A DNA stretch of 64,000 nt from Candidatus Promineifilum breve. GTDB lineage: Bacteria > Chloroflexota > Anaerolineae > Promineifilales > Promineifilaceae. The notes below the pieces were generated by a model that worked only from the letters and a program-made list of their open reading frames with translations, had not been told where the DNA came from and did no database searches. The stretch lies in assembly GCF_900066015.1 (NCBI RefSeq), contig NZ_LN890656.1, positions 558,001 through 622,000 on the forward strand. The letters run 5' to 3'. Of the stretch, positions 1,045-58,562 are shown one piece after another (the first letter of the stretch is position 1; each line of letters starts with the position of its first letter). Position numbers and translations under genes: made by a program.

Positions 1045-2603
1045 CAACTTTTACCCCCGAACACGCCGCCCGCTTCGACGAACTGCAAACCAAACTGGCC
1101 CCCCTGTGGCGGCTCATCGGCCGCACCGACCCCGGCGGCGTGGTGCAGGACGAAAACACCCTCGTCGTCCTCTCTTCGCTCACCGGCGAATTCGGCGCGC
1201 CTGGCATCGTCCAGAAGGTCTACGAGGAGCGCTTCCTCTTTATGACCTTCCTGCTGCGCCAGCCCAATCTGCGGCTCATCTACCTCACCTCGCAGCCCGT
1301 CGCCCCGCTGACCATCGACTACTACCTCCACAACCTGCCCGACGTCACCGTCAGCCACGCCCGCAAGCGGCTGCATCTGCTGTCGCCGCAGGACGGCTCC
1401 AACGCCTCGCTGGTGGAGAAGGTGCTGGCCCGGCCGTGGTTCGTGCGCCTCATCCGCGACCACATCCCCAACCCCGACCGCGCCCACCTTGTGCCCTTCC
1501 TGACGACTGACCTGGAGCGCGAGCTGGCCCTGCAATTGGGCATCCCCATGTATGCCGCCGACCCGCGCCACTTCGCCCTGGGCGGCAAGAGCGGGGCGCG
1601 GCGCGTCTTCGCCGAGGAAGAATTGCGCCACCCGCCCGGCGTCGAAGACATCAGCGACGAGGCCGGCTTCGTCGCCGCCATCATCAGCCTGCGCGCCCAA
1701 CACCCGGCCATCGGGCGGGTGATCACCAAGCACAACCAGGGCGTGTCGGGCGAGGGCAACGCCGTGGTCGATCTGCGCGGCCTGCCGCCGCCCGGCAGCC
1801 CCAGCGAGGCCGCAGCCGTCACCGAACGCCTGCGAGCGATGCGCTTCGAGAACGCCAACCTGACCTACGACGCCTACATGGGCGCGATGGCCCGGCAGGG
1901 CGGCATCGTCGAGGAGATGATCGACGGCGCGGAGAAGCGCAGCCCCAGCGTGCAGATGCGCATCTCCCCCCTGGGCAAGGTCGAAATCCTCTCCACCCAC
2001 GACCAGATGCTCGGCGGCCCCAGCGGCCAGAGCTATCTGGGGGCCATCTTCCCCGCCGACCCGGCCTACAGCCGCCTGATCACCCGCGAAGCGGCCAAAG
2101 TCGGGGCGCGCTTTGTGCGCGAGGGCATCGTCGGCCGCTTCGCCCTCGACTTCCTGACCGTGAAGAAGGCGTCCGACGCGGCCGAACCCGCCGATGCGTG
2201 GGACGCCTACGCCATCGAGGTCAATCTGCGCAAGGGGGGCACGACCCACCCCTTCCTGACCCTGCAATATCTGACCGACGGCCTCTACGACGCCGAATCG
2301 GGCGAATTCACCACCGAACTGGGCGAGCGGCGCTACTACGTGGCCTCCGACCACGTGGAGTCCCACGCCTATCGTATCTTCACCCCCGACGACCTGCTCG
2401 ATCTGATCAGCCTCCACCGCCTGACCTTCGACCAGACCTGCCAGACGGGGCTGATCCTCCATATGTTCAGCGCCGTGGGCGAACTCGGCCGCCTGGGCGT
2501 CACCTGCATCCACGGCACGCCCGCCCGCGCCCGCCGCCTCTACGACGACTTCCTCGCCCTCCTCGACCGGGAAGCAGCGAAGAGGGTAGCGAGTGGCGAG
2601 TAG
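1041..2603 (+). CDS. PGM1-related ATP-grasp peptide ligase
   Basis: A 520-residue protein resembling the peptide ligase PGM1 of pheganomycin biosynthesis, an ATP-grasp carboxylate-amine ligase. Visible landmarks are an N-terminal domain with LRLIYLTSQPV, an ATP-contacting segment ITKHNQGVSGEGN near residue 230, and a metal-binding end of the ATP-grasp fold around 385-405 (FALDFLTV, AIEVNLRKGGTTHP). The start is placed at the ATG at 1041, which overlaps the stop of the VOC gene. An in-frame start at 1020 would lie inside that gene. No precursor peptide or other RiPP gene is adjacent, so the substrate is unknown. The last residues (RVASGE) and the TAG stop are encoded by a 7-base tandem repeat. 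Confidence 0.8.
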   Translation: MTTFTPEHAARFDELQTKLAPLWRLIGRTDPGGVVQDENTLVVLSSLTGEFGAPGIVQKVYEERFLFMTFLLRQPNLRLIYLTSQPVAPLTIDYYLHNLPDVTVSHARKRLHLLSPQDGSNASLVEKVLARPWFVRLIRDHIPNPDRAHLVPFLTTDLERELALQLGIPMYAADPRHFALGGKSGARRVFAEEELRHPPGVEDISDEAGFVAAIISLRAQHPAIGRVITKHNQGVSGEGNAVVDLRGLPPPGSPSEAAAVTERLRAMRFENANLTYDAYMGAMARQGGIVEEMIDGAEKRSPSVQMRISPLGKVEILSTHDQMLGGPSGQSYLGAIFPADPAYSRLITREAAKVGARFVREGIVGRFALDFLTVKKASDAAEPADAWDAYAIEVNLRKGGTTHPFLTLQYLTDGLYDAESGEFTTELGERRYYVASDHVESHAYRIFTPDDLLDLISLHRLTFDQTCQTGLILHMFSAVGELGRLGVTCIHGTPARARRLYDDFLALLDREAAKRVASGE

Positions 2604-2662
2604 CGAGTGGCGAGTAGCGAGTGGCGAGTGGCGAGTGGCGAGTGGCGAGTGGCGAGTGGCGA
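2586..2662. repeat. heptanucleotide tandem repeat, gtggcga/gtagcga, 11 units (family A)
   Basis: Eleven consecutive 7-base units, gtagcga alternating with gtggcga and then pure gtggcga. The first units lie inside the 3' end of the PGM1-type ligase gene and supply its TAG stop at 2601-2603. Related runs occur at 25189-25244, 26909-26936 and (inverse orientation) 19311-19335. Confidence 0.9.
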
Positions 2663-2666
2663 GTTA

Positions 2667-2774
2667 AGACCCTCTCCTAACCTCTCCCAAAGGGAGAGGG
2701 ATCAGAAAAGACCCTCTCCCACAGCGAGTGTTCTGGTTCCCTCTCCCCTTGGGAGAGGGTTAGGGAGAGGGTCT
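2667..2774. repeat. Inverted repeat, ccctctcc...ggagaggg (family I)
   Basis: Outer arms gaccctctcctaacctctccc and its near-complement ending at 2774 enclose inner gggagaggg/ccctctccc copies. A transcript could fold into a long hairpin. No protein is credible here. Confidence 0.75.
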
Positions 2775-2780
2775 TCTCCC

Positions 2781-2812
2781 CTGCTCCCCTGCTCCCCTGC
2801 TCCCCTGCTCCC
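2781..2812. repeat. Tandem ctgctccc repeat, 4 units (family E)
   Basis: Four perfect 8-base units followed by degenerate C-rich sequence. Similar runs occur at 19276-19304 (inverse), 26939-26975 and 38071-38102 (inverse). Confidence 0.85.
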
Positions 2813-5456: not shown

Positions 5457-5714
5457 ATGTATCGCTTGCAGATCAAGCGCTCGGCCGAAGCGGATTTGCG
5501 CCGCTTGCCCGCGCCGGTATTCGCGCGGATCAATGAGCGTCTGTTAACGTTACGCGATGAGCCGCGACCACCAGGCGTGCGCAAGCTTCAAGGCCAACAG
5601 GAGGGCTGGCGAATTCGCGTCGGCGAGTATCGGGTTATTTACCTGATCGATGATTCCAACCGATTGATTACCATCGTGCGTGTTCGACACCGACGAGACG
5701 TTTATAAAACCTAG
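5457..5714 (+). CDS. Type II toxin, RelE/ParE family
   Basis: An 85-residue basic protein of the RelE/ParE superfamily: IKRSAEADLRRLP near the N-terminus, then the core RPPGVRKLQGQQEGWRIRVGEYRVIYLID and the terminal VRHRRDVYKT. Members are mostly ribosome-dependent mRNA interferases or gyrase poisons; this one has the RelE-like arginine/lysine-rich core. It is transcribed with the antitoxin directly upstream. The stop codon TAG (5712-5714) is the first triplet of a palindromic repeat, so the toxin ends exactly where the repeat begins. Confidence 0.9.
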   Translation: MYRLQIKRSAEADLRRLPAPVFARINERLLTLRDEPRPPGVRKLQGQQEGWRIRVGEYRVIYLIDDSNRLITIVRVRHRRDVYKT

Positions 5715-5746
5715 AAACCGAGTTTCTCGGCAGAAACTCGGTTTCT
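5713..5746. repeat. Palindromic repeat agaaaccgagtttct (family H)
   Basis: Perfect 15-base arms (5713-5727 and 5732-5746) around a 4-base loop. It could act as a terminator-like hairpin for the toxin-antitoxin transcript. Related copies lie at 9145-9175 (decayed), 10376-10411, 32353-32384, 32401-32433 and 47905-47940. Confidence 0.9.
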
Positions 5747-5764
5747 ATCTTAGCTGTTACATCT

Positions 5765-8905: not shown

Positions 8906-9046
8906 GACATCTCCTTATGGCTATGGGGTGTTTTTTGAGCGACAATACAAACAAGAGAGGCAGTCACTAACGACTGGTTGACGCATTGCTGTTTGTGGGA
9001 GGGAATAATAACAATGAAAAGATGGCTGTCAACAAAGGAATCGACA

Positions 9047-9139
9047 CTGGAAGACCTGGCCGATTTGGCGGCCATCGAAGCCACGGCCGATGAGCCGGTG
9101 CGCGATTATGACGATTTCCTGGCCGAGTTGCTTCTAAGC
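9047..9139 (+). pseudogene. Remnant of a Phd/YefM antitoxin (C-terminal segment)
   Basis: The frame encodes LEDLADLAAIEATADEPVRD and then DDFLAELLLS, nearly identical to the C-terminal third of the antitoxin at 5194-5454, with high DNA identity (for example gacctggccgatttggcgg in both). The N-terminal DNA-binding part is missing, and no toxin follows. Within a few bases the decayed family H palindrome begins, the element that follows the toxin in the intact locus. This suggests an old copy of the whole module that lost its toxin and antitoxin head. Confidence 0.75.
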
Positions 9140-9144
9140 AAATC

Positions 9145-9175
9145 TAGAAACCGGGTTTTTCGCTACGCAACCCGA
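9145..9175. repeat. Decayed family H palindrome
   Basis: tagaaaccgggttttt followed by gcaacccg. The right arm is truncated. It follows the antitoxin remnant and ends just before the stop of the EEP protein gene. Confidence 0.6.
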
Positions 9176-10207
9176 CTAGCGCGGCTCTTTCGCTTTTAGC
9201 ACCACCAGAACCGCGCAATGGTCAGACTGACCCTCGACGCAGTTCACCGTAGCCGCAGTCGTCGCCAGATGGGGCGAGTGAAAGACGTAATCGATACGCA
9301 CCAACGGAAATGGGAGGCGCACCCCGGCTAGACGAAAATTATTGGGAAACGTCCGGCCCAATCCGAACCCCGCTTGGCGAAAGCTGTCTTGCAGAGAAGC
9401 GGTGATTGCCGCGTAGGCGTGTGACTGGTCACTCATGTTGAAGTCGCCCAGGACAACCACCGGCTCAGCGACCCCCGCTACTTGTTGCAACATATAGGCG
9501 ACTTCGCTTTCGAGATCAGTCTCGATAATGCCGCGCGGCAGAGGGCGCGTCTCCGACCAGACGATCCCCGGTGGATAGAAGTGAATGGGAAAGATGTGCC
9601 AATCGGTACCTTTCTGATCCACAACAACGTGCAGGAAGGGGCGACCGTCGGGCGGGTAAAGCCACTGGTAACCGAGAATAGGTAACTTGCTGAAGAACCC
9701 AGTCGATGCAATAGCCGTGTCTGATATTTGATAGGGGTAGGCGGCCAGCTCAGCCGCCAACACAGCGGCCGACTGGTCTGTCATTTCCTGCACGGCAACG
9801 ATGTCGGCCTGGGCGGCGGCAATCGTTTGGGCCAATTGGTCGGGCGAGGTGAGGCTCAATCCCAAATTAAAAGTCATGGCCGAGACGGTTGGCCCCCTAC
9901 TTTTCTCAGGCAAGATGGCCGAGACCGGCGGCAGCACCGGATGAGTCACCAGAAACAGGGCAACGAGCAGGAGCAAAATCGCTATCGCCGCGCGCGTGCG
10001 CAAGAGTATCAGGCAACCCACTAGCGGAAGCGCCGCTAGATAAAGGTAGAGGTTGAACGTGCTCGCCAGAGCGACAAACGGCGAGACAGGCCGCAGAAAG
10101 TGGTTGGCAATGAGCAAGGCCGCCATTCCAATAAGATAGAGCAGCCCGGCCGCGTGGATAGCTCCCCGGAATCGGTGATTGTTTGCAAGCTTGATCATAC
10201 CGGCCAT
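9176..10207 (-). CDS. Membrane-anchored endonuclease/exonuclease/phosphatase family protein
   Basis: A 343-residue protein. Three hydrophobic segments near residues 15-36, 45-65 and 70-92 form an N-terminal membrane anchor. The rest is an EEP-fold hydrolase with the family signature residues: TFNLG (metal and Asn), AVQEM (catalytic Glu), LGDFN (Asp/Asn), RIDYVF, and the terminal SDHCAV with the general-base His. This architecture is common in bacterial outward-facing or periplasmic hydrolases of unknown substrate; DNases, phospholipases and phosphodiesterases share the fold. It stands alone between unrelated genes. Fold is certain; substrate is not. Confidence 0.87.
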   Translation of the reverse strand: MAGMIKLANNHRFRGAIHAAGLLYLIGMAALLIANHFLRPVSPFVALASTFNLYLYLAALPLVGCLILLRTRAAIAILLLLVALFLVTHPVLPPVSAILPEKSRGPTVSAMTFNLGLSLTSPDQLAQTIAAAQADIVAVQEMTDQSAAVLAAELAAYPYQISDTAIASTGFFSKLPILGYQWLYPPDGRPFLHVVVDQKGTDWHIFPIHFYPPGIVWSETRPLPRGIIETDLESEVAYMLQQVAGVAEPVVVLGDFNMSDQSHAYAAITASLQDSFRQAGFGLGRTFPNNFRLAGVRLPFPLVRIDYVFHSPHLATTAATVNCVEGQSDHCAVLVVLKAKEPR

Positions 10208-10319
10208 ACCTGTGTTCCGATCATACTGCCGAACACGTCCGTTGCCGGTCTACAATGCGCCGCTAACCCTGCTATTGGAGTACGGTAACCAAGCCTATCC
10301 CGCCCAACGCGGCATATAG

Positions 10320-10338
10320 GGCGGGATGGCATCCCGCC
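10320..10338. repeat. Palindrome ggcgggatg-g-catcccgcc
   Basis: Perfect 9-base arms around one base, followed by a partial direct copy (ggcgggataccatcac) at ~10350-10365. Short intergenic element of unknown role. Confidence 0.6.
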
Positions 10339-10375
10339 TCTTTACTCCTGGCGGGATACCATCACGTCCTAAAAC

Positions 10376-10411
10376 TAGAAACCGAGTTTTCAAGAAAAAA
10401 CTCGGTTTCTA
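10376..10411. repeat. Palindromic repeat, family H
   Basis: Arms tagaaaccgagtttt and aaaactcggtttcta with a 6-base loop. It ends 3 bases before the stop codon of the DinB gene. Confidence 0.9.
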
Positions 10412-10414
10412 CCA

Positions 10415-10960
10415 CTATTCAATAGAAATAGGCCTAACAAACTCCTGCGAAAATGCCCAGCCGCTCACATCGGGCGGCTCGAGGCCCAACTGGGTCAGGA
10501 TGACCATGATTTGGGCGCGGTGCTCCGTGGCGTGGTTGATGGCCTGGGTGAGGATCAGGCCGACCGGCGTATGCCAGCGCAAGCCGTCCCCTTCCAGGAT
10601 CACCACCTCGCCCGCCGCCGCGCCCGCGGCCACGTCCATCAGCCCCTGGCCGTTTTGTTGCGCCATCGCCCGCAAGCGGGCCACGTCCACCAGGACAGGG
10701 CCACCGGCCGACCACAACCGGGATTCTGGTTCCCGGCCGGTCAGGTCGGACAGGTATTGCTCCTCCGACCAAACGATGTGGTTGAGGGTCTTATGGATCG
10801 TGTTATACGTGCCGGGAATCGTCGCCGCCAGTTGCTCCTCGTCGAGCGCGGCGCAGGCATCGAGCAGGCGCAGGTTGGCCCACAGGTTGTGGCGGAACAG
10901 CATGACGAGCGGCGGGTCAGCCGCGGCCTGGTTTAATGGCAGGTGGGCTTGCGTGTCCAA
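10415..10960 (-). CDS. DinB family protein
   Basis: A 181-residue four-helix-bundle protein of the DinB/YfiT-like superfamily. Landmarks are FRHNLWANLRLLDAC at the N-terminus, the first metal-type His in KTLNHIVWSEEQYL, and the second in INHATEHRAQIMVILTQLG near the C-terminus. The usual His triad (H-x...H...H) is present. DinB proteins bind divalent metals and act as thiol-dependent S-transferases or damage-inducible proteins; none of these roles is shown here. The start is a TTG at 10960 with AAGGAG eight bases upstream; an ATG start would remove the first helix. Confidence 0.87.
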   Translation of the reverse strand: MDTQAHLPLNQAAADPPLVMLFRHNLWANLRLLDACAALDEEQLAATIPGTYNTIHKTLNHIVWSEEQYLSDLTGREPESRLWSAGGPVLVDVARLRAMAQQNGQGLMDVAAGAAAGEVVILEGDGLRWHTPVGLILTQAINHATEHRAQIMVILTQLGLEPPDVSGWAFSQEFVRPISIE

Positions 10961-11017
10961 TTGTTTATCTCCTTGAATTGACTTTCACGGCGCGGTGGAT
11001 GGATGCGGATACCCATG

Positions 11018-11075
11018 TAGGTGGAACTTCCAGTTCCACCCGCTGGGCGGACGTGGAGCTGGAAGCTCCACCTAC
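11018..11075. repeat. Inverted repeat gtaggtgga...tccacctac
   Basis: Nested arms: gtaggtgga (11018-11026) pairs with tccacctac (11067-11075), with inner gctggaagctcc-type palindromes. It lies between the DinB gene and the downstream end of the hydrolase gene. Confidence 0.65.
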
Positions 11076-11129
11076 GAGCCTTTTTCCGAATTTATTTGTC
11101 GAAAAGAAACAACCCGCCGCCAACGGTTC

Positions 11130-12284
11130 CTAATGCCGATTGAAAAAATCAATCGTCCGCTCCATAAACAGCCCATCGCCATCCCCCCGAAACGTATGCG
11201 GCTGCAAGTCATAGAAAAAGCACTCCGGCGCGTGGGGAATCTCCCTGGCGGCGAATAGCCCATCGAGCACCCCGCACACCTCTTCCGACCACTCCACCGG
11301 CACCACGTCGTCGGCGTAGCTGTGATGGACGGCCACGGCCGCCTCGACCCGCGCCAGATGGTGGATGGGCGAGATGGCCGCCAACATCTCCGGCGGCGCG
11401 GCCAACTCGAAGCGGGCGCGTTGGCTGCCGGCCCAACTGCGGATGCGGCCGTAGTTCCGGGCCTCGTCGCCGCTCATGGAGCCATAGAGCACGGCCGATT
11501 TCAGATACGGCTCGTTGATGACCGTGATGACCCGCAGCGCCACCCCGCCGCCCATGCTGTGACCCCACAGGTTGATGTCGTCGGCGTTGGCCCGCCGCAG
11601 TGTGCCCAGCGTGTCCTGGCTCTGCTCGCGGACGATGGCGATGAGGTTCAGCACGTCGATGGCGTAGCCGATGCGGTACGGGTCGGGGCCGCTGTCCGAG
11701 GGCGGGTAGTTGCGGAAGTTCGGGTGGATGACAAAGTACCCCGCCTCGGCCAGCGCATCGGCATAGCGGCGGGTGTAGGCCACGGTCTCGTATTCGTCGG
11801 GGTCGATGTAGCCGTGGAGCAGCAGGGCCACCGGGAAGTTGTCCCCCTCGTTGGGCACGTTCATAAAGCCGTAGATGGTCAGGCCGTCGCTGGGGTATTT
11901 GATCTCGTAGCGGGTGAAACGGTCGTTGCTCTCCAGCGTGTCGGTGATCTCCAGCAGCCCGCCGCCATACGACCGCGCGGCCAGGGCGGCGATGGTCAGG
12001 TCGGCGTATGGGTCGGGGGTCGGCGTGGGTGCAGCGGTGGGCGGCGGGGGTGTGGGCGGTGGAACCGTGGGCAGCGCGGCCGTGGCGGGGATGGTGGCTG
12101 TCGCCGCCGCGATGCTGACCGAACTGCCGGCCGGCAAGGGCGTCGGCTGACTGGTGGTTGTGGCAAGTGATGGGACGGGCGTTGGAGAGCTAACAGCCGC
12201 TGTGTTGGCGTTGGGGGATCGGCCGCAACCTAGGCTAACAAATAATAGTAATAGTATCAATAACCTCTTCACTATGCGAATCAT
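11130..12284 (-). CDS. Lipoprotein alpha/beta hydrolase
   Basis: A 384-residue lipoprotein. A signal peptide ends in LGC with the lipidated cysteine at residue 20. A Thr/Pro-rich linker (to ~95) leads to an alpha/beta-hydrolase domain of the prolyl-oligopeptidase-like type. It has the oxyanion strand VALLLHGYID, the nucleophile elbow GHSMGGG, the acid in YADDVVP and a His in QPHTF. A peptidase, esterase or deacetylase acting outside the membrane is likely; the substrate is not evident. The gene is isolated, with 314 bases of repeat-bearing DNA upstream. Confidence 0.85.
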   Translation of the reverse strand: MIRIVKRLLILLLLFVSLGCGRSPNANTAAVSSPTPVPSLATTTSQPTPLPAGSSVSIAAATATIPATAALPTVPPPTPPPPTAAPTPTPDPYADLTIAALAARSYGGGLLEITDTLESNDRFTRYEIKYPSDGLTIYGFMNVPNEGDNFPVALLLHGYIDPDEYETVAYTRRYADALAEAGYFVIHPNFRNYPPSDSGPDPYRIGYAIDVLNLIAIVREQSQDTLGTLRRANADDINLWGHSMGGGVALRVITVINEPYLKSAVLYGSMSGDEARNYGRIRSWAGSQRARFELAAPPEMLAAISPIHHLARVEAAVAVHHSYADDVVPVEWSEEVCGVLDGLFAAREIPHAPECFFYDLQPHTFRGDGDGLFMERTIDFFNRH

Positions 12285-12328
12285 ATCAATGAGAGCTGTG
12301 CGTTAACATATTAATGGACATATCGGTA

Positions 12329-12394
12329 GGGGCGAGGCAGCGGCGAAACCATTCTCGCCATGCAGAACCCACTAGTCTCGCCGCTGCCTCGCCC
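12329..12394. repeat. Inverted repeat ggggcgaggcagcggcga (family J)
   Basis: Arms of 17-18 bases at 12329-12346 and 12378-12394 around ~31 bases. The same arms, with g for a at one position, recur at 25442-25507, so this is a dispersed element. Confidence 0.8.
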
Positions 12395-12492
12395 TCTGGG
12401 CTCCGGCAACGCGTTTTAACGCGGTTTTGTGTACCAGCCGATGGATTCATCCATCGGGTGAATGCGGCCATCTATTTAGGATATTTCCCGGC

Positions 12493-12508
12493 GCGGGTTC
12501 AAACCCGC
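12493..12508. repeat. Palindrome gcgggttcaaacccgc (family K)
   Basis: A second copy of the core cgggttcaaacccg is at 33616-33629. Intergenic in both places. Confidence 0.6.
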
Positions 12509-12598
12509 CGAGCGTACGCCACATGCCGCATTAATTTGTAAATGTTCAACATCCATCGGGTGAATCCATCGTTACAAAATCAACGAATAGGTGTCTGA

Positions 12599-13366
12599 TT
12601 ATCCCCGATGATATTCCATTGGCGCAGCCAGGATCTCCAACCGCACCTCGCCCACACCTAACCGCTCAACGCGATACGCATGACCGCGACCGGCCACCTC
12701 AAGGCGCGACCCCTGCGCCACCAGCAACGTATCTTCATCGATCGCCCAGCCCTCATCCGTCAGCCCGCCGGCCACGGCCTGGATGAGGCGCGTCAATGTG
12801 CCCATTTGCCCGGCGTGAACGTCCACGGCGAACGGCACCAGCCCCGCCCCCGGCCGCACGGTCAGCGCGTCCAGCCCCTCGCCCGCGCCGGCGAAAATCA
12901 TCGGCCGGGCCGCGCCATCGCCCGTCTGCCAGCCGCCCACAATCGCCCGTGTGGCGGCGATGGCCGCGCCGGCCGACGTACCGCCATAAGCGACGCGCTG
13001 CCCGCGCACGTACTCGACCCAACTCAGGTCGGCGCACAGGGCGGCGTGATAGACCGGCGTCGCCCCGCCACACACGAAGAGACCCGCCGGCGCATAACCG
13101 GCCACCTGCGCGCCGGTCAGCGGGCGCTCCGGCCTCACCCATATAGGCTGTAACCGTTCGGCCGGAACCGCCAGGGCCAAGAAAAGTTCGCTGTAATAAT
13201 CGGTCGTTTCGCGCGCTTCTTCCGGCTCGGCCGCGGCGGCCACAATCAATAGCGGGCCATCGCCCCCGCCCAGAAAGGCCTGAGCCATGCGGCCAAAGGT
13301 GCTTTCGCGGGCTGTGGGCGCGTCGCCGCCGCCATGCAACAAAACCAATGGATACTCATTCGTCAT
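12599..13366 (-). CDS. Cyanophycinase-like serine peptidase (family S51)
   Basis: A 255-residue protein of the class I glutamine-amidotransferase-like fold. The nucleophile elbow GGTSAGA sits near residue 130, and FVCGGATPVYH, LLHGGGD and VDVHAGQMG mark the family. The Ser nucleophile in GTSAGA, rather than Cys, fits peptidase S51: cyanophycinase or dipeptidase E. Cyanophycinase cleaves cyanophycin to beta-Asp-Arg dipeptides. No signal peptide is seen, so it should act in the cytoplasm. Its start overlaps the end of the PP2C gene by 11 bases, making it the last gene of the five-gene operon. Specificity for cyanophycin is inferred from family membership and operon partners. Confidence 0.82.
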   Translation of the reverse strand: MTNEYPLVLLHGGGDAPTARESTFGRMAQAFLGGGDGPLLIVAAAAEPEEARETTDYYSELFLALAVPAERLQPIWVRPERPLTGAQVAGYAPAGLFVCGGATPVYHAALCADLSWVEYVRGQRVAYGGTSAGAAIAATRAIVGGWQTGDGAARPMIFAGAGEGLDALTVRPGAGLVPFAVDVHAGQMGTLTRLIQAVAGGLTDEGWAIDEDTLLVAQGSRLEVAGRGHAYRVERLGVGEVRLEILAAPMEYHRG

Positions 13367-15215: not shown

Positions 15216-15231
15216 CGGGGTTTCGTCGCGC

Positions 15232-15672
15232 CTACTCGTCGTCCGGCATGGCCGGGGCCGATTCCATCATAAACGTGCTGCGATTGCGCCCGCCCTCGCT
15301 GTCATAAGCAAAGCCATCGACGCCCCACAGGGCCAGAAAGATGCCCAAGCCCCCGTCGCGCCGCTCCTCCAGGGGCCGGTCGAGGTCGGCCGGGCGCGGC
15401 GCCTGGCGCGGGTCGAACGGCCGGCCGGTGTCCTCCAGACAGAGGATCAATTGCCGCTCGGTGGTTTCGGCCCAGATGGTCAGGTCGCCGCTCAAGTGGT
15501 AATCCTCGTAGCCATGCTGGACGACGTTGGTGGCGATCTCATCGACGGCCAGCGCCAGCCGGTAGGTGGCGGCGTCGTCCAGCCCGAAGGCGGCCGCCGC
15601 CCAGACCACGTAATCGAGCACCTGGCTCAGGTTGTCGGCGTGGCCGCCCACGGTCAATGGTTCCAGATTCAT
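15232..15672 (-). CDS. RsbW-type serine/threonine kinase (anti-sigma regulatory factor)
   Basis: A 146-residue single-domain HATPase_c protein. N-box ALAVDEIATNVVQHG is near residues 43-57, the G1 motif LEDTGRPFDP near 80-88, and the terminal GGLGIF near 107. This size and layout are those of RsbW/SpoIIAB kinases, which phosphorylate STAS proteins and sequester sigma factors. The partner STAS protein is not in the window. The ATG overlaps the GlgX stop (ATGA), and the PP2C gene begins 16 bases after its own end. This is the usual genetic pairing of kinase and phosphatase in partner-switching systems. Confidence 0.85.
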   Translation of the reverse strand: MNLEPLTVGGHADNLSQVLDYVVWAAAAFGLDDAATYRLALAVDEIATNVVQHGYEDYHLSGDLTIWAETTERQLILCLEDTGRPFDPRQAPRPADLDRPLEERRDGGLGIFLALWGVDGFAYDSEGGRNRSTFMMESAPAMPDDE

Positions 15673-17789: not shown

Positions 17790-17827
17790 AGCGTTGATGC
17801 CGAAATGCTGCCTACAAGTATAACCCG

Positions 17828-19237: not shown

Positions 19238-19241
19238 AGGT

Positions 19242-20391: not shown

Positions 20392-20463
20392 CTTACTTGG
20401 CCCGGCATCACGAAGGCGCCGGCCGAGAGAATAGCCGGCGCCGGCGGCGGTCGGACGGCCGGA

Positions 20464-21000: not shown

Positions 21001-21007
21001 AACCTTC

Positions 21008-21016: not shown

Positions 21017-21046
21017 GAACGCACTCATACCCATCGGGAGATTGTC

Positions 21047-40767: not shown

Positions 40768-40854
40768 CCTCTCTTCGCGGACTGTCCTTTTGCTGTCCCC
40801 GGGGCCAGTGTGGCCGCCCGCGCTTCGTGCTATGGTAAGCATGAGGCGAATGGG

Positions 40855-41235
40855 ATGAAACCGTTGCGCGTTGTCCTGTTGGGGCAGTCGGTGCTGTTGG
40901 GCAGTCTGGCGGCCGGACTGCGCCGCTTCCGCGAACTGGAAGTCCTCTGCCTGGCCGCCCCACCCCCGGAAGCTGAACCAGTGGCCGCGCTGTCGCCGGA
41001 CGTCATCCTGTTCGACGCCGCCGCGGCCGCGCCCCCCTTCGCCCTGGCCCTACTCCATTGTTGCCCCGCCTTGCGCCTCATCAGCCTCGACGCCGACCGC
41101 AACCGGGTCGTTGTCTGGTCGGGGCAACAACTCAACGATTTATCGCTCGATGATTTGGCGCGGTTGCTGGGCGACGATCAGCGCCTATTCCACCTATCTG
41201 CCGTACCGGATTCGTCCAAGGATAGAACATCATGA
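40855..41235 (+). CDS. Receiver-like small protein without the acid pocket
   Basis: A 126-residue protein with the strand pattern of a response-regulator receiver: KPLRVVLLGQSVLLGSLAAGLRRF, then LSPDVILFDAAAAAPPFALALL, then LRLISLDADRNRVVVW. The beta3 Asp is present in VILFD, but the acidic pair of beta1 is absent (VVLLGQS), so phosphorylation is doubtful. Its stop overlaps the ATG of the giant secreted protein gene (ATGA), so the two are translated together. This coupling suggests it helps control production of the exoprotein, although no direct evidence exists. The start follows GAGG by about ten bases. Confidence 0.65.
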   Translation: MKPLRVVLLGQSVLLGSLAAGLRRFRELEVLCLAAPPPEAEPVAALSPDVILFDAAAAAPPFALALLHCCPALRLISLDADRNRVVVWSGQQLNDLSLDDLARLLGDDQRLFHLSAVPDSSKDRTS

Positions 41236-44200: not shown

Positions 44201-47200
44201 CCTGACCCAGACGCCGCCCAATCCGTCCACCAGCAGCAGCGCGACCCTGGCCTTCAGCAGCGAGACGGGCGCGACCTTCGAGTGCAAGCTCGACAGCGGC
44301 AGCTTCGCCACGTGCACCTCGCCCAAGAGCTACACCAGTCTGACTGACGGCAGCCACACGTTCAGCGCGCGGGCCAAAGACGCGGCCGGCAACGTCGATC
44401 CCAGCCCGGCCACGGTCACCTGGATCGTGGACACCACCCCGCCGCAAACCACCATCGCCTTCACCGAAGTCCTGCCCGGTTCCATCCACTTTACGGTGAA
44501 CTTCACCGAGCCGGTCGATGGCTTCGCCAAAGATGACGTGGCGCTCAGCGGCACAGCCGGGGCGACGACATCCGTCGTCACCAACCTCCACGACCGCATG
44601 GCGTTCGACCTGGCGGTCAGCGGCATGACCGGCGACGGCACGATCGTCCTCGCCATCGCCGCCGGCGCAGCCACCGACGCGGCCGGCAACGGCAATACGG
44701 CGGCCACGCTCACCTGGACAATCGACTCGACCGGCCCGGCCGTGACCATCACCGCCGCGCCGCCCGACCCGTCCGATAGCAACGCGGCCACATTCACTTT
44801 CACGAGTGAACAGGGGGCGACGTTCGAGTGTAGCCTCGACGGCGCGGACTTCGCCGCCTGCACGTCGCCCAAGAGCTACACCGGTCTGAATGACGGCAAC
44901 CACACGTTCCTGGCCTGGGCCACCGACGCCGCCGGCAACAGCGGCGACCCGGCCGGCCACACCTGGACGGTGGACACGACGCCGCCCGACACCTCCATCG
45001 ACACCTGGATCGGCGACGTTTTCACCGTCAACACCATCACCATCGAATTCAGCAGCAACGAGGCGGGCAGCACCTTCGAATGCCAACTGGACAGCGGCAG
45101 TTGGACAGACTGCACCAGCCCGATCACCTACGATAATCTGGCCGACGGCCCCCACACCTTCCAGGTGCGGGCCACCGACCCGGCCGGTAACACCGACCTC
45201 AGCCCGGCCGGAGATGATTGGACGGTACAGACGCCGGGGCCTGATACGAGCCTCGACAGCTACCCGCCCAACCCATCCAACAGCCCTACGGCTACCTTCA
45301 CCTTCAGCGGCAGCGGCGCGGCCGCCTTTGAGTGCTCGCTCGATGACGCGCCTTTTGCCGCTTGCGCCAGCCCGCACGAAGTCACTGGCCTGGCCGACGG
45401 GCCGCACTTCTTCGCCGTCCGCGCCGTGGATGACCAGGGCAAGGCCGATACCGACTACCCCATTCACTACTGGCTCGTGGACGCCACCCCGCCCACGACC
45501 ACCATCGTCTTCACCGACGTCCTGCCCGGTTCCATCCATTTTACGGTGAACTTCACCGAGCCGGTCAATGGCTTCGCCAACAATGATGTGGCGCTCAGCG
45601 GCACGGCCGGGGCGACGACGGCCAGCGTCACCAACCTCCACGACCGCATGGCGTTTGACCTGGCGGTCAGCGGCATGACCGGCGACGGCACGATCGTCCT
45701 GGCCATCGCCGCCGGCGCAGCCACCGACGCGGCCGGCAACGGCAATACGGCGGCCACGCTCACCTGGACAATCGACTCGACCGGCCCGGCCGTGACCATC
45801 ACCGCCGCGCCGCCCGACCCGTCCAACAGCAACGCGGCCACATTCACTTTCACGAGTGAACAGGGGGCGACGTTCGAGTGTAGCCTCGACGGCGCGGACT
45901 TCGCCGCCTGCACGTCGCCCAAGAGCTATAGCGGTCTGAGTGACGGCCGCCACACGTTCCTGGCCTGGGCCACCGACGCCGCCGGCAACAGCGGCGACCC
46001 GGCCGGCCACTCCTGGACAGTGGACACCACGCCGCCGGAGACGACCATCACCGGCCAGCCGCCGGCGCTAGCCACCAGCCCCACGGCCGAGTTCCGCTTC
46101 AGCAGCGAGGCCGGCGCGACGTTCGAGTGCCGGCTCGACAGCGGCGAGTTCGCCGCCTGCGCCTCGCCCAAGAGCTACAACGGTCTGAGCCAAGGCCCTC
46201 ATACCTTCGCGGTGCAGGCCAAAGATGCGGCCGGCAACACCGATCCCAGCCCGGCGACGGTCACCTGGACGGTCGATACGACGCCGCCCAACACGACCAT
46301 CGACAGCGGCCCGACGGGCACAACCGGCGATAACGACGCGCTATTTGCCTTCAGCAGCGAGCCGGGCGCGACGTTCCACTGTCGTCTCGATGGCGGCGCG
46401 ACCACGACCTGCGCCAGCCCGCAGAGCTACACCGACCTGGCCGATGGGCCACATACCTTCAGCGTCTATGCCTGTGATGTCGCCGGCAACTGCGCGGCGA
46501 CGCCGGTGACGCGGACGTGGACGATCGACACGGCGGGGCCAGGCGCCACCATCGACGCCGCCCCCGGCAGCCCGTCCAACGACAACACGCCGACGTTCGC
46601 GTTCAGCGGCAACGACGGCGCGATCGCCTTCCAGTGCCGCACGGATAGCGGCGGCTACTCGGCTTGCGTCAGCCCGATCACCCTGGGGCCGCTGGCCGAC
46701 GGCGAGCATACCTTCTACGTTCGGGGCATCGACGGCGCGGGCAACCTGGGTGCGCCCGACAGCCACACCTGGACAATCGACACCGTCGCCCCGACGGCGA
46801 CGATCACCACGGCCCCGCCCAATTCATCCGACAGCGGCGCGGCCACGTTTACCTTCAGCAGCAGCGAGAGCGGGGCGACATTCACCTGTCAGCTCGATGA
46901 CGCGCCGTGGACGCCATGCGCCGGCCAGGTGACCTACACCGGCCTGAGCCAGGGCAGCCACACCTTCCGGGTGCAGGCGACCGACGCCGCCGGCAACGTC
47001 GGCGACAGTGTGACCTACAATTGGATCATCACCTTCCCGCCACCGGACGTGAACTTGTACGTCTCCACCAATGCCGCGGGCGTGGTCGCCGGGCTGACCT
47101 ACGGCCCCGAAGACGTGTTGCGCTGGAACGGCAGCGTGTGGGCGCGGTGGTTCGACGGTTCGGCCGCCGGCCTCGCGCCGAGCGGCAAGGCCCAGCACAA

Positions 47201-47837
47201 TATCCACGCCATCTGGATCCCCAACCCAGCCGAGAACGCTCTGGTGATGTCCTTCGGCCAGAACCGCCGCCACGTGCCGGGCATCGCCCAGCCGGTGGAC
47301 GGCATGGATCTGGTGTGGTGGGATGGCGCTCACTTCACTTTCTGGTTCGACGGTTCCGACGTGGAACTGACCGACATGACGCAGGAGAAAATCGACGGCC
47401 TCCACGTGCTGCCGGGCAACCTGTCGCCCATCAACGGCGGCAACTGCCTCTACTACTTGCTGATCAGCACGCAAGGGCCGGGCAAGGTGAAAGGCCACGA
47501 CAACGCTTTCTTCAAGTTCGGCGGCGAGGACGTGCTGGGCTTCTGCGCCACCAGTCTGGGCGCCAACACCGCCGGCAAGTGGCATCTGGTGCTGGACGGC
47601 AGCGCCCAGGGCCTGCCCAAGAACGCGCTAACCAGCCTAAGCGCCAGCGCCGACGGCCGGACGCTCTACCTGACGACCAAGGGCGCGATCAACGTTGACG
47701 GCGCGACCGGCGGCCAGTCGATGATCTTCGCCTACGACATGACCAGCCAGACGTTCCGCGGGCCGCTGTTCAGCGCCCCGGCCACCGGGTTGTCGCGGCC
47801 GGTGGATGGGCTTGAGGTGGTGAGTTTGCCGGAGTAG
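41232..47837 (+). CDS. Giant secreted protein with ~18 Ig-like repeats
   Basis: A 2201-residue exported protein. A signal peptide (~1-37) precedes an N-terminal region (~40-395) of propeller-like repeats (LALGPDGKPYIAWD, LALDAAGNPHISYH). Then come 16 units of ~84 residues with the pattern ATFxFSSxxAGATFECKLDSG...TSPKSYTGLxDGSHTFxVRAKDAAGN, joined by TPPETTI-type linkers. Two units of another Ig-like type (PGSIHFTVNFTEPV) interrupt them. Each main unit keeps a Cys pair, probably a disulfide. The C-terminus (~1935-2201) has FDGSxxGL motifs shared with the protein at 29583-31148. A surface adhesin or matrix protein is likely. Its TAG stop is the first repeat unit of a 7-base family. Confidence 0.87.
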   Translation: MTPTPTFPAGRHGAALRLALAVLLAAVLALALGPTPANALPKWIREFVSPTYGPIDMTMGPDGKLILAYVDATIMGEHSGELRFAVRDGSDWTTTTVAPASYCPHLDVIPLSLAYNANANLAAISFFDHCEAIYRVAIGLNPVGDVWVWTLEEPPDLENGDWASAPFGSDIAIDDQGKIHLATIDDFMVYYLWRTEDDGWETTGTPLRRENEWLVQDVSLALGPDGKPYIAWDTDGINYAYPTILNNFIIEHVTSDVSTGLGLSLVMDNSGVPSIAFNNQNMLKYARRTDTDTWEVSIADPGVSCNASQFPSLALDAAGNPHISYHCRADLSHGSVRYASWDGAAWQIEHASPYYLENEWTSLVLDEADVPHILYTHYDDLSYATRTEVPPEAYIDNRPPLNDPLTTATFTFHSNDTAATFECRLDSAAVAACASPHSYSGLADGSHTFQVRARDAAGRVSLNPAEYTWAVDSFAPATTLTSTPPNPSASKSAVFAFSSNEAGATFECKVDSAAFGGCGSPKGYNNLTDGSHTFEVRAKDAAGNVDPTPPSYTWTIDTVVPNTTIDAYPPNPSTSGSATFAFSSNEAGAMFACKLDSGDYADCTSPKSYSGLADGSHTFTVRAGDAAGNLDPSPASYTWIVDTAPETTITTKPSNPSNDPTPDFAFTSSDGGSADGILFHCQTDANGWFPCGGDSITYHNLFDGDHTFYVKAEDTLGNVDPTPATWSWTIDLTAPETTITVKPAAATKSTNATFQFTSEAGATFECKLDSGSFAACTSPQSYTGLSEASHTFQVRAKDAIGNVGSPAGYTWIVDTTPPETTITAHPDALTTSATATFSFTGVGAASFECKLDSGGFVACTSPITYTGLYNGSHTFHVWAIDAAGNYDTSTANYTWTVDTNPPETSITGKPAATTNSTTAEFTFTSVDGAASFECKLDTAAFAVCTSPISYTGLGNGSHTFAVRAKDTAGNYDPSPASYTWSIDTAAPDTTLTQTPPNPSTSSSATLAFSSETGATFECKLDSGSFATCTSPKSYTSLTDGSHTFSARAKDAAGNVDPSPATVTWIVDTTPPQTTIAFTEVLPGSIHFTVNFTEPVDGFAKDDVALSGTAGATTSVVTNLHDRMAFDLAVSGMTGDGTIVLAIAAGAATDAAGNGNTAATLTWTIDSTGPAVTITAAPPDPSDSNAATFTFTSEQGATFECSLDGADFAACTSPKSYTGLNDGNHTFLAWATDAAGNSGDPAGHTWTVDTTPPDTSIDTWIGDVFTVNTITIEFSSNEAGSTFECQLDSGSWTDCTSPITYDNLADGPHTFQVRATDPAGNTDLSPAGDDWTVQTPGPDTSLDSYPPNPSNSPTATFTFSGSGAAAFECSLDDAPFAACASPHEVTGLADGPHFFAVRAVDDQGKADTDYPIHYWLVDATPPTTTIVFTDVLPGSIHFTVNFTEPVNGFANNDVALSGTAGATTASVTNLHDRMAFDLAVSGMTGDGTIVLAIAAGAATDAAGNGNTAATLTWTIDSTGPAVTITAAPPDPSNSNAATFTFTSEQGATFECSLDGADFAACTSPKSYSGLSDGRHTFLAWATDAAGNSGDPAGHSWTVDTTPPETTITGQPPALATSPTAEFRFSSEAGATFECRLDSGEFAACASPKSYNGLSQGPHTFAVQAKDAAGNTDPSPATVTWTVDTTPPNTTIDSGPTGTTGDNDALFAFSSEPGATFHCRLDGGATTTCASPQSYTDLADGPHTFSVYACDVAGNCAATPVTRTWTIDTAGPGATIDAAPGSPSNDNTPTFAFSGNDGAIAFQCRTDSGGYSACVSPITLGPLADGEHTFYVRGIDGAGNLGAPDSHTWTIDTVAPTATITTAPPNSSDSGAATFTFSSSESGATFTCQLDDAPWTPCAGQVTYTGLSQGSHTFRVQATDAAGNVGDSVTYNWIITFPPPDVNLYVSTNAAGVVAGLTYGPEDVLRWNGSVWARWFDGSAAGLAPSGKAQHNIHAIWIPNPAENALVMSFGQNRRHVPGIAQPVDGMDLVWWDGAHFTFWFDGSDVELTDMTQEKIDGLHVLPGNLSPINGGNCLYYLLISTQGPGKVKGHDNAFFKFGGEDVLGFCATSLGANTAGKWHLVLDGSAQGLPKNALTSLSASADGRTLYLTTKGAINVDGATGGQSMIFAYDMTSQTFRGPLFSAPATGLSRPVDGLEVVSLPE
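44471..44975. repeat. Coding duplication, copy 1 (partner at 45521)
   Basis: About 500 bases almost identical to 45521-46025, at an exact offset of 1050 bases (350 codons). Covers one PGSIHFTVNF-type unit and the Ig-like unit after it. Confidence 0.85.
45521..46025. repeat. Coding duplication, copy 2 (partner at 44471)
   Basis: Second copy of the block. Anchor strings cctgcccggt (44471/45521) and cgtgaccatc (44741/45791) keep the same 1050-base offset. Confidence 0.85.
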
Positions 47838-47890
47838 TGGATAGTGGATAGTGGATAGTGGGCAGTGGGCAGTCATGCTTCTGCCCACTG
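47835..47890. repeat. 7-base-period repeat tagtgga/cagtggg (family B)
   Basis: Its first triplet, TAG at 47835-47837, is the stop codon of the giant protein gene. The right side (tgcccactg) is complementary to cagtgggca, giving a hairpin. Confidence 0.85.
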
Positions 47891-47904: not shown

Positions 47905-47940
47905 TAGAAACCGAGTTTTTTGGAAAAAACTCGGTTTCTA
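47905..47940. repeat. Palindromic repeat, family H
   Basis: Perfect 16-base arms (47905-47920, 47925-47940) around tgga. Confidence 0.92.
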
Positions 47941-50011: not shown

Positions 50012-50017
50012 TCTTTA

Positions 50018-50110
50018 GTGGTCTGTGGTCCGTGGTCTGTGGTCTGTAACGCCCACAGACCACAGACCACAGACGACAGACGACAGACCACAGACCACTG
50101 ACCACTAACC
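50018..50110. repeat. 7-base-period repeat tggtctg/tggtccg as inverted repeat (family C)
   Basis: gtggtctgtggtccgtggtc on the left, gaccacagaccacagac on the right, between ino1 and the metallopeptidase gene. Begins six bases after the ino1 stop and ends 2 bases before the next ATG. Confidence 0.88.
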
Positions 50111-50111
50111 C

Positions 50112-52899: not shown

Positions 52900-52995
52900 T
52901 TAACCACGGATTGACACGGATTGGACGGATATGACGGATAGCCCACCGACTAATCCGTGTCAATCCGTTAAATCCGTGTCAATCCGTGGTTGATT
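52900..52995. repeat. cacggat-type inverted repeat (family G)
   Basis: aaccacggattgacacgg on the left, atccgtgtcaatccgtggtt on the right. Lies between the pentapeptide protein and the SRAP gene. Confidence 0.9.
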
Positions 52996-53029: not shown

Positions 53030-53701
53030 ATGTGCGGCCGATTTGCTCTGGCAGCCACCGGGGAAGAGGTGGCCGCCCACTATCAGTTGCCCGAAGTGCC
53101 GTTCGTTGTGCCCCGCTACAACGTGGCTCCCACGCAGCCGGTGGCCGCCGTGCGGCTGAACGCCCGCGGCGAGCGCGAATTCACCTTTTTCCAGTGGGGT
53201 CTCATCCCGTCGTGGGCCAAGGAGCCGTCGATCGGCTCGAAGATGATCAACGCCCGGGCCGAGACGGCGGCCGAAAAGCCCGCCTTCCGCGCCGCCTTCA
53301 AGCGCCGCCGCTGCCTGTTGCCCATGACCGGCTTCTATGAGTGGCAGGCCACCGACGGCCGCAAGCAGCCGATGTACATCCACGGCGCGGGCGGGGGGTT
53401 GTTGTCGCTGGCCGGGTTGTGGGAAGTGTGGCAGTCGGCCGACGGCGGCCTGCTGGAGACCTGCACCATCCTGACCACCACGCCCAACGCCCTCATGGAG
53501 TCGATCCACAACCGGATGCCGGTCATCGTGGAACCGTTGGACTATGGCGCGTGGCTGGCCGCCGACACGCCGGCCGACGAACTGCACCACCTGCTGCGCC
53601 CCTACGCCGCCGAACAGTTGGCGGCCTACCCGGTCAGCACGGCCGTCAATCGGCCGCAGAATGACGCGGTTGAGTGTATTGCGCCGCTGACTGAAGAGTA
53701 G
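53030..53701 (+). CDS. SOS response-associated peptidase (SRAP, YedK/HMCES family)
   Basis: A 223-residue single-domain SRAP protein. The catalytic Cys is residue 2 (MCGRFAL). Other sites are RYNVAPTQP, FFQWGLIPSWAK, MINARAETAAEKPAF (Asn), LLPMTGFYEW (Glu) and SIHNRMPVI (His). The family forms a thiazolidine crosslink to abasic sites in single-stranded DNA, protecting them. The family G repeat lies before it. The TAG stop is also the start of a 7-base repeat (tagtggtcagtgga). Confidence 0.93.
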   Translation: MCGRFALAATGEEVAAHYQLPEVPFVVPRYNVAPTQPVAAVRLNARGEREFTFFQWGLIPSWAKEPSIGSKMINARAETAAEKPAFRAAFKRRRCLLPMTGFYEWQATDGRKQPMYIHGAGGGLLSLAGLWEVWQSADGGLLETCTILTTTPNALMESIHNRMPVIVEPLDYGAWLAADTPADELHHLLRPYAAEQLAAYPVSTAVNRPQNDAVECIAPLTEE

Positions 53702-53765
53702 TGGTCAGTGGACAGTGGGCAGTAAGGATACTGCCCACTGTCCACTGACTACTGTCCACTGCTTC
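53699..53765. repeat. 7-base-period inverted repeat tagtggtcagtgga (family B)
   Basis: Starts at the TAG stop of the SRAP gene and runs through a hairpin (gtgggcagt...actgcccac) to one base before the stop codon of the convergent LysM gene. Confidence 0.88.
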
Positions 53766-56785: not shown

Positions 56786-56809
56786 GGGCTGTTCTCCTTC
56801 ATAATTTGA

Positions 56810-57000
56810 CCACGGATACCACGGATTTTACGGATTTTCACGGATAAGAAAAAAAGATAGAACGCAGATGACGCGGATAAGAAAAAGAAATTGAACACGG
56901 ATGACGCGGATTTACGCGGATTATCGCGGATAAGAGGTAATTATCTCCTATCCGCGATAATCCGCGTCAATCCGTGTCATCCGCGTTCTATCTATTCTCC
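56810..57000. repeat. cacggat/acgcggat repeat array (family G)
   Basis: Several units (cacggataccacggatttta, gacgcggatttacgcgg) in one sense followed by their complement (atccgcgtcaatccgtg), forming a large stem upstream of the MFS gene. Confidence 0.85.
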
Positions 57001-57050
57001 GCGAAAATATGATAAAGTTCCCACCATCAATCAGGAGCAAGCCCTTATCC

Positions 57051-58454
57051 ATGACTGCCATCCGTCCCCACCACCGCCTCCTCTATTCCGCCGGCTCCCT
57101 CGGCGTCGCCCTGTCCTATCAGGCTTTCTCGGCCTACATCCAGTTCCTCTACATCGACACCCTCGGCGTGCGCGCGGCGTGGATTGGGCTTGTCTGGGCG
57201 CTCTATGGCCTGTGGAACGCGGTCAACGACCCGCTGGTGGGCTATTGGAGCGACCGCACGCGCAGCCGCTGGGGCCGCCGCGTGCCGTGGATGGCCGGCT
57301 CGCTGCTGCCGCTGCTCATCACTTTCTACCTGCTGTGGCTGCCCGGCGGCGGCACGGACTGGTCGGAGCTGAGCCTGCTGTTCTACTTCCTGTTCATCGT
57401 GCTCCTGTTCGATTTCTTCTGGTCGGTCTACGTGATGAACTGGACGGCCCTCTTCCCCGAAATGGCCCAGGGCGAGAGCCAGCGGGCGGGCGTCTCGGCC
57501 CAGCGCGAGGTGTTCTCCATCTTCGGCCTGCTGGTCGGCGTGGCCCTGCCGCCGCTGCTGGCCGGGGCGGACTGGAGCAACCGGGGCAGCATGGCCGCCC
57601 TGCTGACGGCCGTCACCTTCGTCTCCCTTCTGCTCGGCCTGCTGGGCAGCCGCGAGCGGCCGGAGTTCGCCGCCGCGCCGTCGCCCTCCTTCCGCGAATC
57701 GATCCGCCTGACACTGGGCAATCGCAACTTCATCATCTTCCTGGCCGCCAACCTGATGATCCAGTACGTCTTTCTGGCGATGGCGTCGTCGATCCCGTTC
57801 TACGCCAAGTACGTGCTGCACATCCAGGGGCCGACGACGCTGTTCGGAGTGACGTTGGACGCCGACCTGCAAAACTCGCTGTTGCTGGCCGCGGCCTTTC
57901 TGGCGGCATTGCCGGCCATGGCCGTATGGTGGGCGCTGGCCCGGCGTTATGGGGCGTGGCGGGCGCTGCGGGCGGCGGCGCTGCTGGCCGCGGCCACGGC
58001 GCTCTACTTCTTTTTCCCCCAGACCTTCGCCGCCGGCATTCTGGGCACGACCCTCTTCGGCCTCAGTCTGGCCGGGCTGCTCATGCTGACCAACCCGCTG
58101 CTGGCCGACATCACCGACGAGGACGAGGTGCTGAACGGCGCGCGGCGCGAGGGGATGTTCTTCGGCATGAACGGGCTAATCATCCGGTTGGCCTTCGTCA
58201 TCCAGGGCTTGCTGACGGCCGTGGTCTTCACCCTGACCGGCTACGTCAGCCCCAGCGCGGGCGTCCTCTTCCCGCCCCAGCCCGACACGGCCCTCTTCGG
58301 CATGCGCCTGCTGACCGGCGGCGTCCCGGCCATCGCCCTGGTCGTGGCCTTTCTATTGCTGGGCAGCTATACCCTCCACGGCGCGCGGGCCGCGCAAGTC
58401 CGGGCGCAAGCGGCGACGATGCAGGCCGATAAGCTTTCGTCGCTGGAGAATTAG
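57051..58454 (+). CDS. MFS transporter, glycoside-pentoside-hexuronide (MFS_2) type
   Basis: A 467-residue transporter from the ATG at 57051. About 11-12 hydrophobic helices. The MFS_2/GPH pattern is seen in LYSAGSLGVALSYQAFSAY, LYGLWNAVNDPLVGYWSDRTRSRWGRRVPWM and the mid-protein FLAANLMIQYVFLAMASS. Such carriers usually move sugars with sodium or protons; the substrate is unknown. The longer frame from 57009 has a weak N-terminus. It is flanked by repeats on both sides and shares no operon. Confidence 0.88.
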   Translation: MTAIRPHHRLLYSAGSLGVALSYQAFSAYIQFLYIDTLGVRAAWIGLVWALYGLWNAVNDPLVGYWSDRTRSRWGRRVPWMAGSLLPLLITFYLLWLPGGGTDWSELSLLFYFLFIVLLFDFFWSVYVMNWTALFPEMAQGESQRAGVSAQREVFSIFGLLVGVALPPLLAGADWSNRGSMAALLTAVTFVSLLLGLLGSRERPEFAAAPSPSFRESIRLTLGNRNFIIFLAANLMIQYVFLAMASSIPFYAKYVLHIQGPTTLFGVTLDADLQNSLLLAAAFLAALPAMAVWWALARRYGAWRALRAAALLAAATALYFFFPQTFAAGILGTTLFGLSLAGLLMLTNPLLADITDEDEVLNGARREGMFFGMNGLIIRLAFVIQGLLTAVVFTLTGYVSPSAGVLFPPQPDTALFGMRLLTGGVPAIALVVAFLLLGSYTLHGARAAQVRAQAATMQADKLSSLEN

Positions 58455-58562
58455 CTACGGATTTAAACGGAAGAAACGGATAAAAAATCCGTTTCTTCCG
58501 TTTAAATCCGTAGCCAAATCCTAACCGTCTTTATCCGTTTCTTCCGTCTAAATCCGTAGCCA
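58452..58562. repeat. acggat/aatccg repeat array (family G variant)
   Basis: Units gctacggatttaaacggaag and complement aatccgtttcttccgtttaa, repeated. The last copy encodes the end of the SurE gene. Confidence 0.85.

Follow-up and report, generated by a model that had tools for sequence, protein, structure and literature searches.

Why do the stop codons of so many genes lie within, or directly against, short intergenic repeats? The question is raised by a stretch of 64,000 nucleotides from Candidatus Promineifilum breve (contig NZ_LN890656.1, positions 558,001 to 622,000; C2:558001-622000 in our own numbering), which is called the window below. The genome has a size of 5.03 Mb in three contigs, and the best matches of one protein of the window were found in Ardenticatenia and Anaerolineae assemblies of the Chloroflexota. 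A first-pass annotation had listed eight genes whose stop codon is inside a repeat or is its first triplet, and had suggested that the repeats insert at gene 3' ends or spread from them. The explanation which we favor, with moderate confidence, is that they are dispersed elements resembling the repetitive extragenic palindromic (REP) sequences, many of them hairpins with arms built as arrays of short units, and that they have been added between genes, the hairpins preferring positions no more than 20 nt past stop codons.

All eight stops were read in context, and each is located inside a repeat or at its edge, as had been claimed. Four of these repeats are hairpin arms, a feature absent from the first-pass annotation. 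The first triplet of a GAAACCGAG palindrome (5712-5747, + strand) is the TAG stop of a ParE-family protein (5714). The response regulator of LuxR type (positions 39996-40688 of the window, by domain assignment) receives its last codons and its TAG stop (40688) from a CTAGGNN hairpin with 39-nt arms at 40660-40776 (+). The SRAP protein (53030-53701, also by domain assignment) has its TAG stop as the first triplet of a TAGTGGTC array, at the edge of an AGTGGNN hairpin with 25-nt arms (53700-53753); the convergent gene ends at 53766 (-). The SurE stop at 58531 (-) is a TAA within ACGGATAA, and the TACGGATTTAAACGG hairpin at 58447-58567 contains the stops of both convergent genes, that of SurE and that at 58454 (+). 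For the other four arrays no partner arm was detected. The GAGTGGC heptamer array at 2589-2664 (+) gives the stop (2601-2603) and the last codons of an ATP-grasp (PGM1-type) protein, and a GAGTGGC/GGGTGGC array at 25187-25247 (+) gives the stop 25197-25199 of the protein encoded at 24468-25199; both stops are TAG triplets within GAGTGGC/GAGTAGC arrays. The first triplet of a TAGTGGA array (47835-47872, +) is the TAG stop of gene 41232-47837. In the CACGGATT array (525-570, +) the TAA stop 534-536 is found at the array edge, followed directly by CCACGGATT, within the extended flank of repeat family D17. It had also been stated that in four proteins the last codons are repeat DNA, and this was confirmed: the repeat-coded tails are VASGE (PGM1-type protein), GSGE (24468-25199 protein), EGLGARF (response regulator) and ATDLDGRNG (SurE).

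Outside coding sequence, 17 hairpins were detected in the window, and their arms are 15 to 56 nt long. Six of them fold as RNA at -23 to -80 kcal/mol, with z-values of -7.6 to -16.1. Many arms consist of a degenerate unit of 7, 8 or about 10 nt repeated in tandem, the units of these array families including AGTGGNN, CTAGGNN, GAATNAN, GAGTGGC, GCAGGGGN, CACAGATTN and ACACGGATTN; the mean arm length of the array families is 24-42 nt. Plain palindromes (GAAACCGAG, GTAGGGCGGG) and lone arrays make up the other families. The palindrome pattern of the GAAACCGAG type, GAAACCGAGTTT-N(4-14)-AAACTCGGTTTC, occurs at 78 places in the genome, and three AGTGGNN units in a row give 505 overlapping matches and are present in 29 of 59 genomes, our own included. 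The apex GGAAGAGCGCTCTTCC was considered as a widespread module and rejected, being found in 3 of the 59 genomes (own included), all of the same genus. A backwards-read control pattern, GGTGANNGGTGANNGGTGA, has 206, 287 and 111 matches on both strands in genomes G011, G020 and G058, respectively, and none here; the active units seem to vary from genome to genome. Among 146 array-family hairpins of the genome sample described below, 136 have a purine-rich 5' arm and 9 a pyrimidine-rich one; in 15 of 18 hairpins of the CACAGATT-like family, nevertheless, this arm contains less G than C.

The placement of hairpins was assessed in 60 stretches of 20 kb together with the window, 1.264 Mb or 25% of the genome. 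A home-made gene finder called 940 genes in this sample and missed some, for example the ParE gene 5457-5714. At a score of at least 14, 321 hairpins were detected: 279 centered in gaps of at least 20 bp, 34 in coding sequence and 8 elsewhere. Three dinucleotide-shuffled replicates of the gaps gave none. The tests of placement, family, arm match and stop codon were made on 278 gap hairpins, one of score 188 (in stretch L084) having been dropped and those centered in coding sequence or elsewhere left out; the sample statistics refer to hairpins only, lone arrays being outside the counts. Families were assigned by hand-written patterns, which leave 42 of the 278 unassigned and some visibly misplaced.

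Near gene 3' ends (within -30 to 10 nt) 116 hairpin edges were counted, against 72.5 expected from uniform placement within gaps; near gene 5' ends the count was 11, against 50.1 expected. Uniform placement was rejected as the only null model, being too weak because the hairpins nearly fill many gaps. The overall excess is gone under a null that excludes start-proximal positions, and the claim of a preference therefore rests on long gaps between genes of the same strand. In such gaps longer than 250 bp, 21 of 77 hairpins start 0-20 nt past the stop codon, against 3.9 expected from the density at 21-160 nt (Poisson, 1e-9); of the remainder, 4 start at 21-40 nt, 7 at 41-80 nt, 15 at 81-160 nt and 29 beyond, and one is overlapping. 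The same gaps with an upstream gene score of at least 100 have 15 of 48 hairpins at 0-20 nt, against 2.7 expected. Taking all convergent gaps, 44 were counted against 33.4 expected (p 0.0035, 50 hairpins). Hairpins occupy 48 of 99 convergent and 149 of 476 tandem gaps. Five array families pooled (CTAGGNN, GAATNAN, CACAGATT-like, GCAGGGGN and GAGTGGC-like) have 54 tandem, 14 convergent and 2 divergent copies. The ACACAGAG family and the palindromes GGGCGAGG and GGTCAGGCAACC are mostly located away from gene ends.

The repeats supply stop codons. Among 42 genes whose stop is overlapped by a hairpin, the stop is TAG in 28, TAA in 5 and TGA in 9, while TAG is used by 210 of 656 genes without an adjacent hairpin (Fisher 1.3e-5). 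This is plausibly because several families carry TAG at the outer end (CTAGG, TAGTGG, TAGAAACCGAG). The TAG excess at overlaps and the repeat-coded C-termini uphold the earlier proposal that the repeats have become part of proteins. The alignment to orthologues, which had been suggested as a check for a native stop just upstream, places the repeat-coded C-termini of the four compared window genes near the same place as the ends of their orthologues; these four genes are therefore not truncated.

It is important to compare these gene ends with those of relatives. Stretches of six genomes of the same genus were used, giving 91 orthologue pairs, 88 with enough downstream DNA. Occupied and unoccupied states of the same site were both seen. 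The junction of two carbamoyltransferase-like genes (named by eye from sequence) is 99 bp with a hairpin here and 6 bp in genome G002, with protein identities of 95 and 97%. A ACACGGATT hairpin at 52902-52991 (+) is found in a 170-bp gap, and the corresponding gaps of G002, G004 and G005 are 46, 47 and 35 bp. Among 24 pairs in which our genome has a repeat and the relative lacks one, 7 have a gap of -4 to 28 bp in the relative. Which state came first is inferred, as the comparison has no outgroup.

Where the relatives do carry a repeat, it often belongs to a different family. The 3' end of SurE has a ACGGATTTAAACGG array in our genome (G000), CAGTAGGT in G003, GGGATAG in G002 and GAATGAC in G004, and each codes a different C-terminal tail. 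The contig with SurE in G005 (L121, G005:C162) ends at the 3' end of the gene, as if the assembly broke at a repeat, and draft relatives may under-count hairpins. The end of the SRAP gene has AGTGGNN here and CACAGATT in G005, with none in G004 and none above the threshold in G002. The PGM1-type gene ends with GAGTGGC here, with other arrays in G003 and G005 and with none in G007. The carbamoyltransferase/carbamate kinase junction has CTAGGNN here and another hairpin in G002. The first-pass annotation had named repeat-derived tails shared by descent as evidence that would count against insertion; such sharing is seen in part, and for one case, in the response regulator of G002, which has a related array with different units, and not in the second G002 copy nor in the G005 and G007 genes compared, which have none.

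Of 63 gaps of our genome, 20 are occupied by a hairpin or array, and 6 of these are occupied in a relative as well; of the 43 gaps that are empty here, 1 is occupied in a relative (p 0.003). If the gap has to measure at least 40 bp in our genome and in the relative, the counts are 6 of 16 and 1 of 23 (p 0.013). Without four anchor loci, which had been chosen for their repeats here, they become 2 of 16 and 1 of 43 (p 0.18), and the co-occupancy of gene ends is therefore only suggestive. It is conceivable, and we put it forward as a tentative idea, that gene ends in this genus are "seats" at which unrelated repeat families take each other's place, the site and the hairpin design being retained. 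A long hairpin by the stop would then be kept rather than its sequence, and a copying process would write matching arms of the active unit of the genome.

The elements themselves would have been added to intergenic space, at least partly within the genus and sometimes into junctions of a few bases. Where an arm reaches into the last codons of a gene, a TAG of the element could become the stop and the arm could become the C-terminal tail. We suppose that the repeats move as elements, and that the arms may be renewed against each other by copying. Three matches to Y1_Tnp were found. The best such gene, L229:1170-1973 (RAYT-like), has CGTGGGATNAATCCCACG palindromes on both sides and AACCGGCTGAAGCCGGTT on one side, and is likely a REPtron for families other than the arrays. 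The match in L230 has no flanking hairpin, and the weakest match, in L231, is located between an array hairpin of the ACGGATT type and a palindrome of the GTAG type. A spread of the array families driven by RAYT has no clear support from these three loci.

Several observations weigh against the picture of elements added preferentially after stops. When start-proximal positions are excluded and an overlap of 30 nt is allowed, 114.6 edges are expected near gene 3' ends, against the 116 seen. Convergent gaps longer than 150 bp show no excess (4 against 4.2, 16 hairpins). Divergent gaps are also occupied, 41 of 126, and the window itself contains a CTAGGNN hairpin with the apex GGAAGAGCGCTCTTCC in a divergent gap (20908-20983), a counter-example to gene ends as the only target. 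The relative G003 has no 3' bias (3 against 3.1, 9 hairpins), and in G007 the end of the SurE match is free of repeats. One point in favor of the picture is subject to bias: in each of eight array families tested, an arm resembles its own partner more closely than it does the arms of other hairpins (p 0.02 to 4e-9), but hairpin detection favors matching arms. No mobilizing enzyme is clearly linked to the array families among the three Y1_Tnp matches, and no target-site duplication was resolved at junctions read by eye, the relatives being too diverged between genes. The earlier suggestion that repeats are placed at gene 3' ends is thus retained in view of the stop-proximal peak in long same-strand gaps and the much tighter junctions of relatives, and is given up for gene ends as the sole target. 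That the elements insert or persist after stops is still the best reading.

An alternative, which we consider unlikely, is neutral accumulation. Elements or slipping arrays could land anywhere and be cleared by selection from genes and promoters, so that the survivors remain after stops with no preference for gene ends. The agreement of the overall count with the start-excluded null is as this explanation predicts, and the number of hairpins per kb beyond 50 nt of starts is similar in tandem (1.75), convergent (1.42) and divergent (1.46) gaps. However, it does not account for the peak at 0-20 nt in long same-strand gaps, nor for the near absence of the five pooled array families from divergent gaps.

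The first-pass annotation had thought of terminators as possible sites of the repeats. The repeats might themselves be transcription terminators: each gene end would need a hairpin, and the array hairpins would be locally amplified bidirectional terminators. Their stop-proximal position, their great stability and the co-occupancy in relatives, often by another family, agree with this. However, no U-tract is present (pooled over 278 hairpins, the share of T is 0.27-0.39 at the eight positions next to the hairpin on either side), 50 of the 278 hairpins are in divergent gaps, and a probable carbamoyltransferase/carbamate kinase operon has hairpins at two of its junctions. Rho is present in the genome, and its loss as a cause of gene-end hairpins was rejected for this reason. 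Two sampled relatives, G003 of the same genus (10 hairpins in 274,538 bp) and G013 of the same family (12 in 399,546 bp), have by the same pipeline seven- to eightfold fewer hairpins per base than our genome, these being fragmented assemblies that may break at such repeats; G013 does show a gene-end bias (7 against 4.0, p 0.018, 11 hairpins). A consensus terminator scan of window positions 9001-29000 gave 18 against 13.2 in shuffles and is uninformative. Termination as the main role is disfavored, and we regard it as distinctly improbable. Very unlikely, finally, is a purely local origin, in which arrays arise at small palindromes already in place, through replication slippage and copying templated by the hairpin, with no insertion from elsewhere: it is consistent with the matching arms within a hairpin and with the shared site and related but different units of the response regulators here and in G002, but the same units are found at numerous distinct places (25 of the sampled hairpins are of the AGTGGNN family, besides the genome-wide matches given above), which suggests copying between sites.

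The dispersed elements favored here have close precedents in the heptamers of Xanthomonas and Nostoc and in the GTAG REPs. The G-rich heptamers of Xanthomonas (GGGAATC) and Nostoc (GGGGAYT) are degenerate, intergenic and strongly biased to stops, including overlaps, and two Xanthomonas genomes have 70 and 75 convergent inverted heptamer pairs, with 7-9% between divergent genes (PMC4692102). The AGTGGNN, CTAGGNN and GAGTGGC families are likewise degenerate 7-nt tandem units near stops with inverted pairs. Unlike those heptamers, with one family per genome studied, this genome combines many families, with units of 7, 8 and about 10 nt and often in the form of hairpin pairs, and one gene end can carry different families from species to species. 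With regard to G-quadruplexes, no GGG occurs in units such as GAATTAC and CACAGATT. The GTAG REPs, also reported in Chloroflexi, are palindromes near gene 3' ends, most of them in convergent gaps within 20 bp, and their ends often give a TAG stop (PMC3733652). The high-copy intergenic palindromic hairpins described here are similar in their position near 3' ends and in supplying TAG stops. A GTAG end was seen by eye, uncounted, in palindromes such as GTAGGGCGGG and GTAGGTGGAAC and not in most array families. REPs are of 20-40 bp with stems mostly of 6-9 bp, whereas the array families have much longer arms and no clear link to a transposase among the three Y1_Tnp matches.

In the Nostoc trnL intron the P6b stem consists of heptamer repeats of one of two classes, one class repeatedly replacing the other at a fixed site (PMC4476775). 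A heptamer-built stem and class replacement at one site are common to both systems, but the former is a single intron locus in a structured RNA and the sites here are the ends of protein genes. The TAACTGA repeats of Beggiatoaceae are intergenic heptamers with stops in all frames, some overlapping the ends of open reading frames (PMC4679880). They resemble the present units in being able to end reading frames, and differ in being direct repeats that mostly lie a short way before start codons; a single case is inverted. REPs of E. coli within 15 nt of the stop are reported to affect mRNA 3'-end stability or ribosome stalling (PMC12306157). The array hairpins may act in the same way, and a hairpin beside the stop could be useful or tolerated as an exonuclease barrier or through an effect on the ribosome, as for REPs. 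No description of array-armed hairpins at gene ends in Chloroflexota was found in the literature searched, most subscription papers being outside it. In that literature we likewise found neither so many array-armed families side by side nor the end of one protein gene occupied by different families in sister species.

Other gene ends of the window show the same arrangement. Four further genes (10415, 32350, 50011 and 53766) had been said to end within a few bases of a repeat, and they do so. A GAAACCGAG palindrome at 10376-10411 (-) is 3 nt past the stop of gene 10415-10960 (-). A double GAAACCGAG hairpin at 32351-32435 directly follows the stop 32350 (+), 2 nt before the end of 32438 (-), and a GTGGTCT/CCACAGA hairpin at 50015-50108 (+) fills the space 50012-50111 that separates two genes of the same strand. 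To these, at least four gene ends can be added: those at 58454, 31148 and 19378 touch repeats, and that at 31274 is 10 nt away. The GAATTAC array at 19347-19377 (-) abuts the stop of gene 19378-20391 (-), and a ACACGGATT hairpin with 56-nt arms (31148-31263) is located between the convergent gene ends 31148 (+) and 31274 (-). Another GAAACCGAG palindrome (47905-47940) is 67 nt past the stop 47837, and a ACACGGATT/CGCGGATT hairpin (56893-56988) is in a divergent gap. No Rfam family at gathering score and no tRNA was found in the window. Palindromes of the kinds GGGCGAGGCRGCGGCGA and GGGGTCAGGCAACCGGGAG (window 12330-12394 and 25354-25508) recur near each other in long gaps (L081, L090, L091, L084), away from gene ends, and look like a separate composite element. 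The inverted repeat of score 188, L084:7498-7917, overlaps two convergent predicted genes by 180 nt each and may be an inverted duplication or transposon ends.

In this genome, many genes thus appear to have gained short-repeat elements at their ends, with altered stop codons and C-termini as a result. The presence of different families at one gene end in sister species provides a testable case, either of selection on hairpin shape over sequence or of an unknown copying process.

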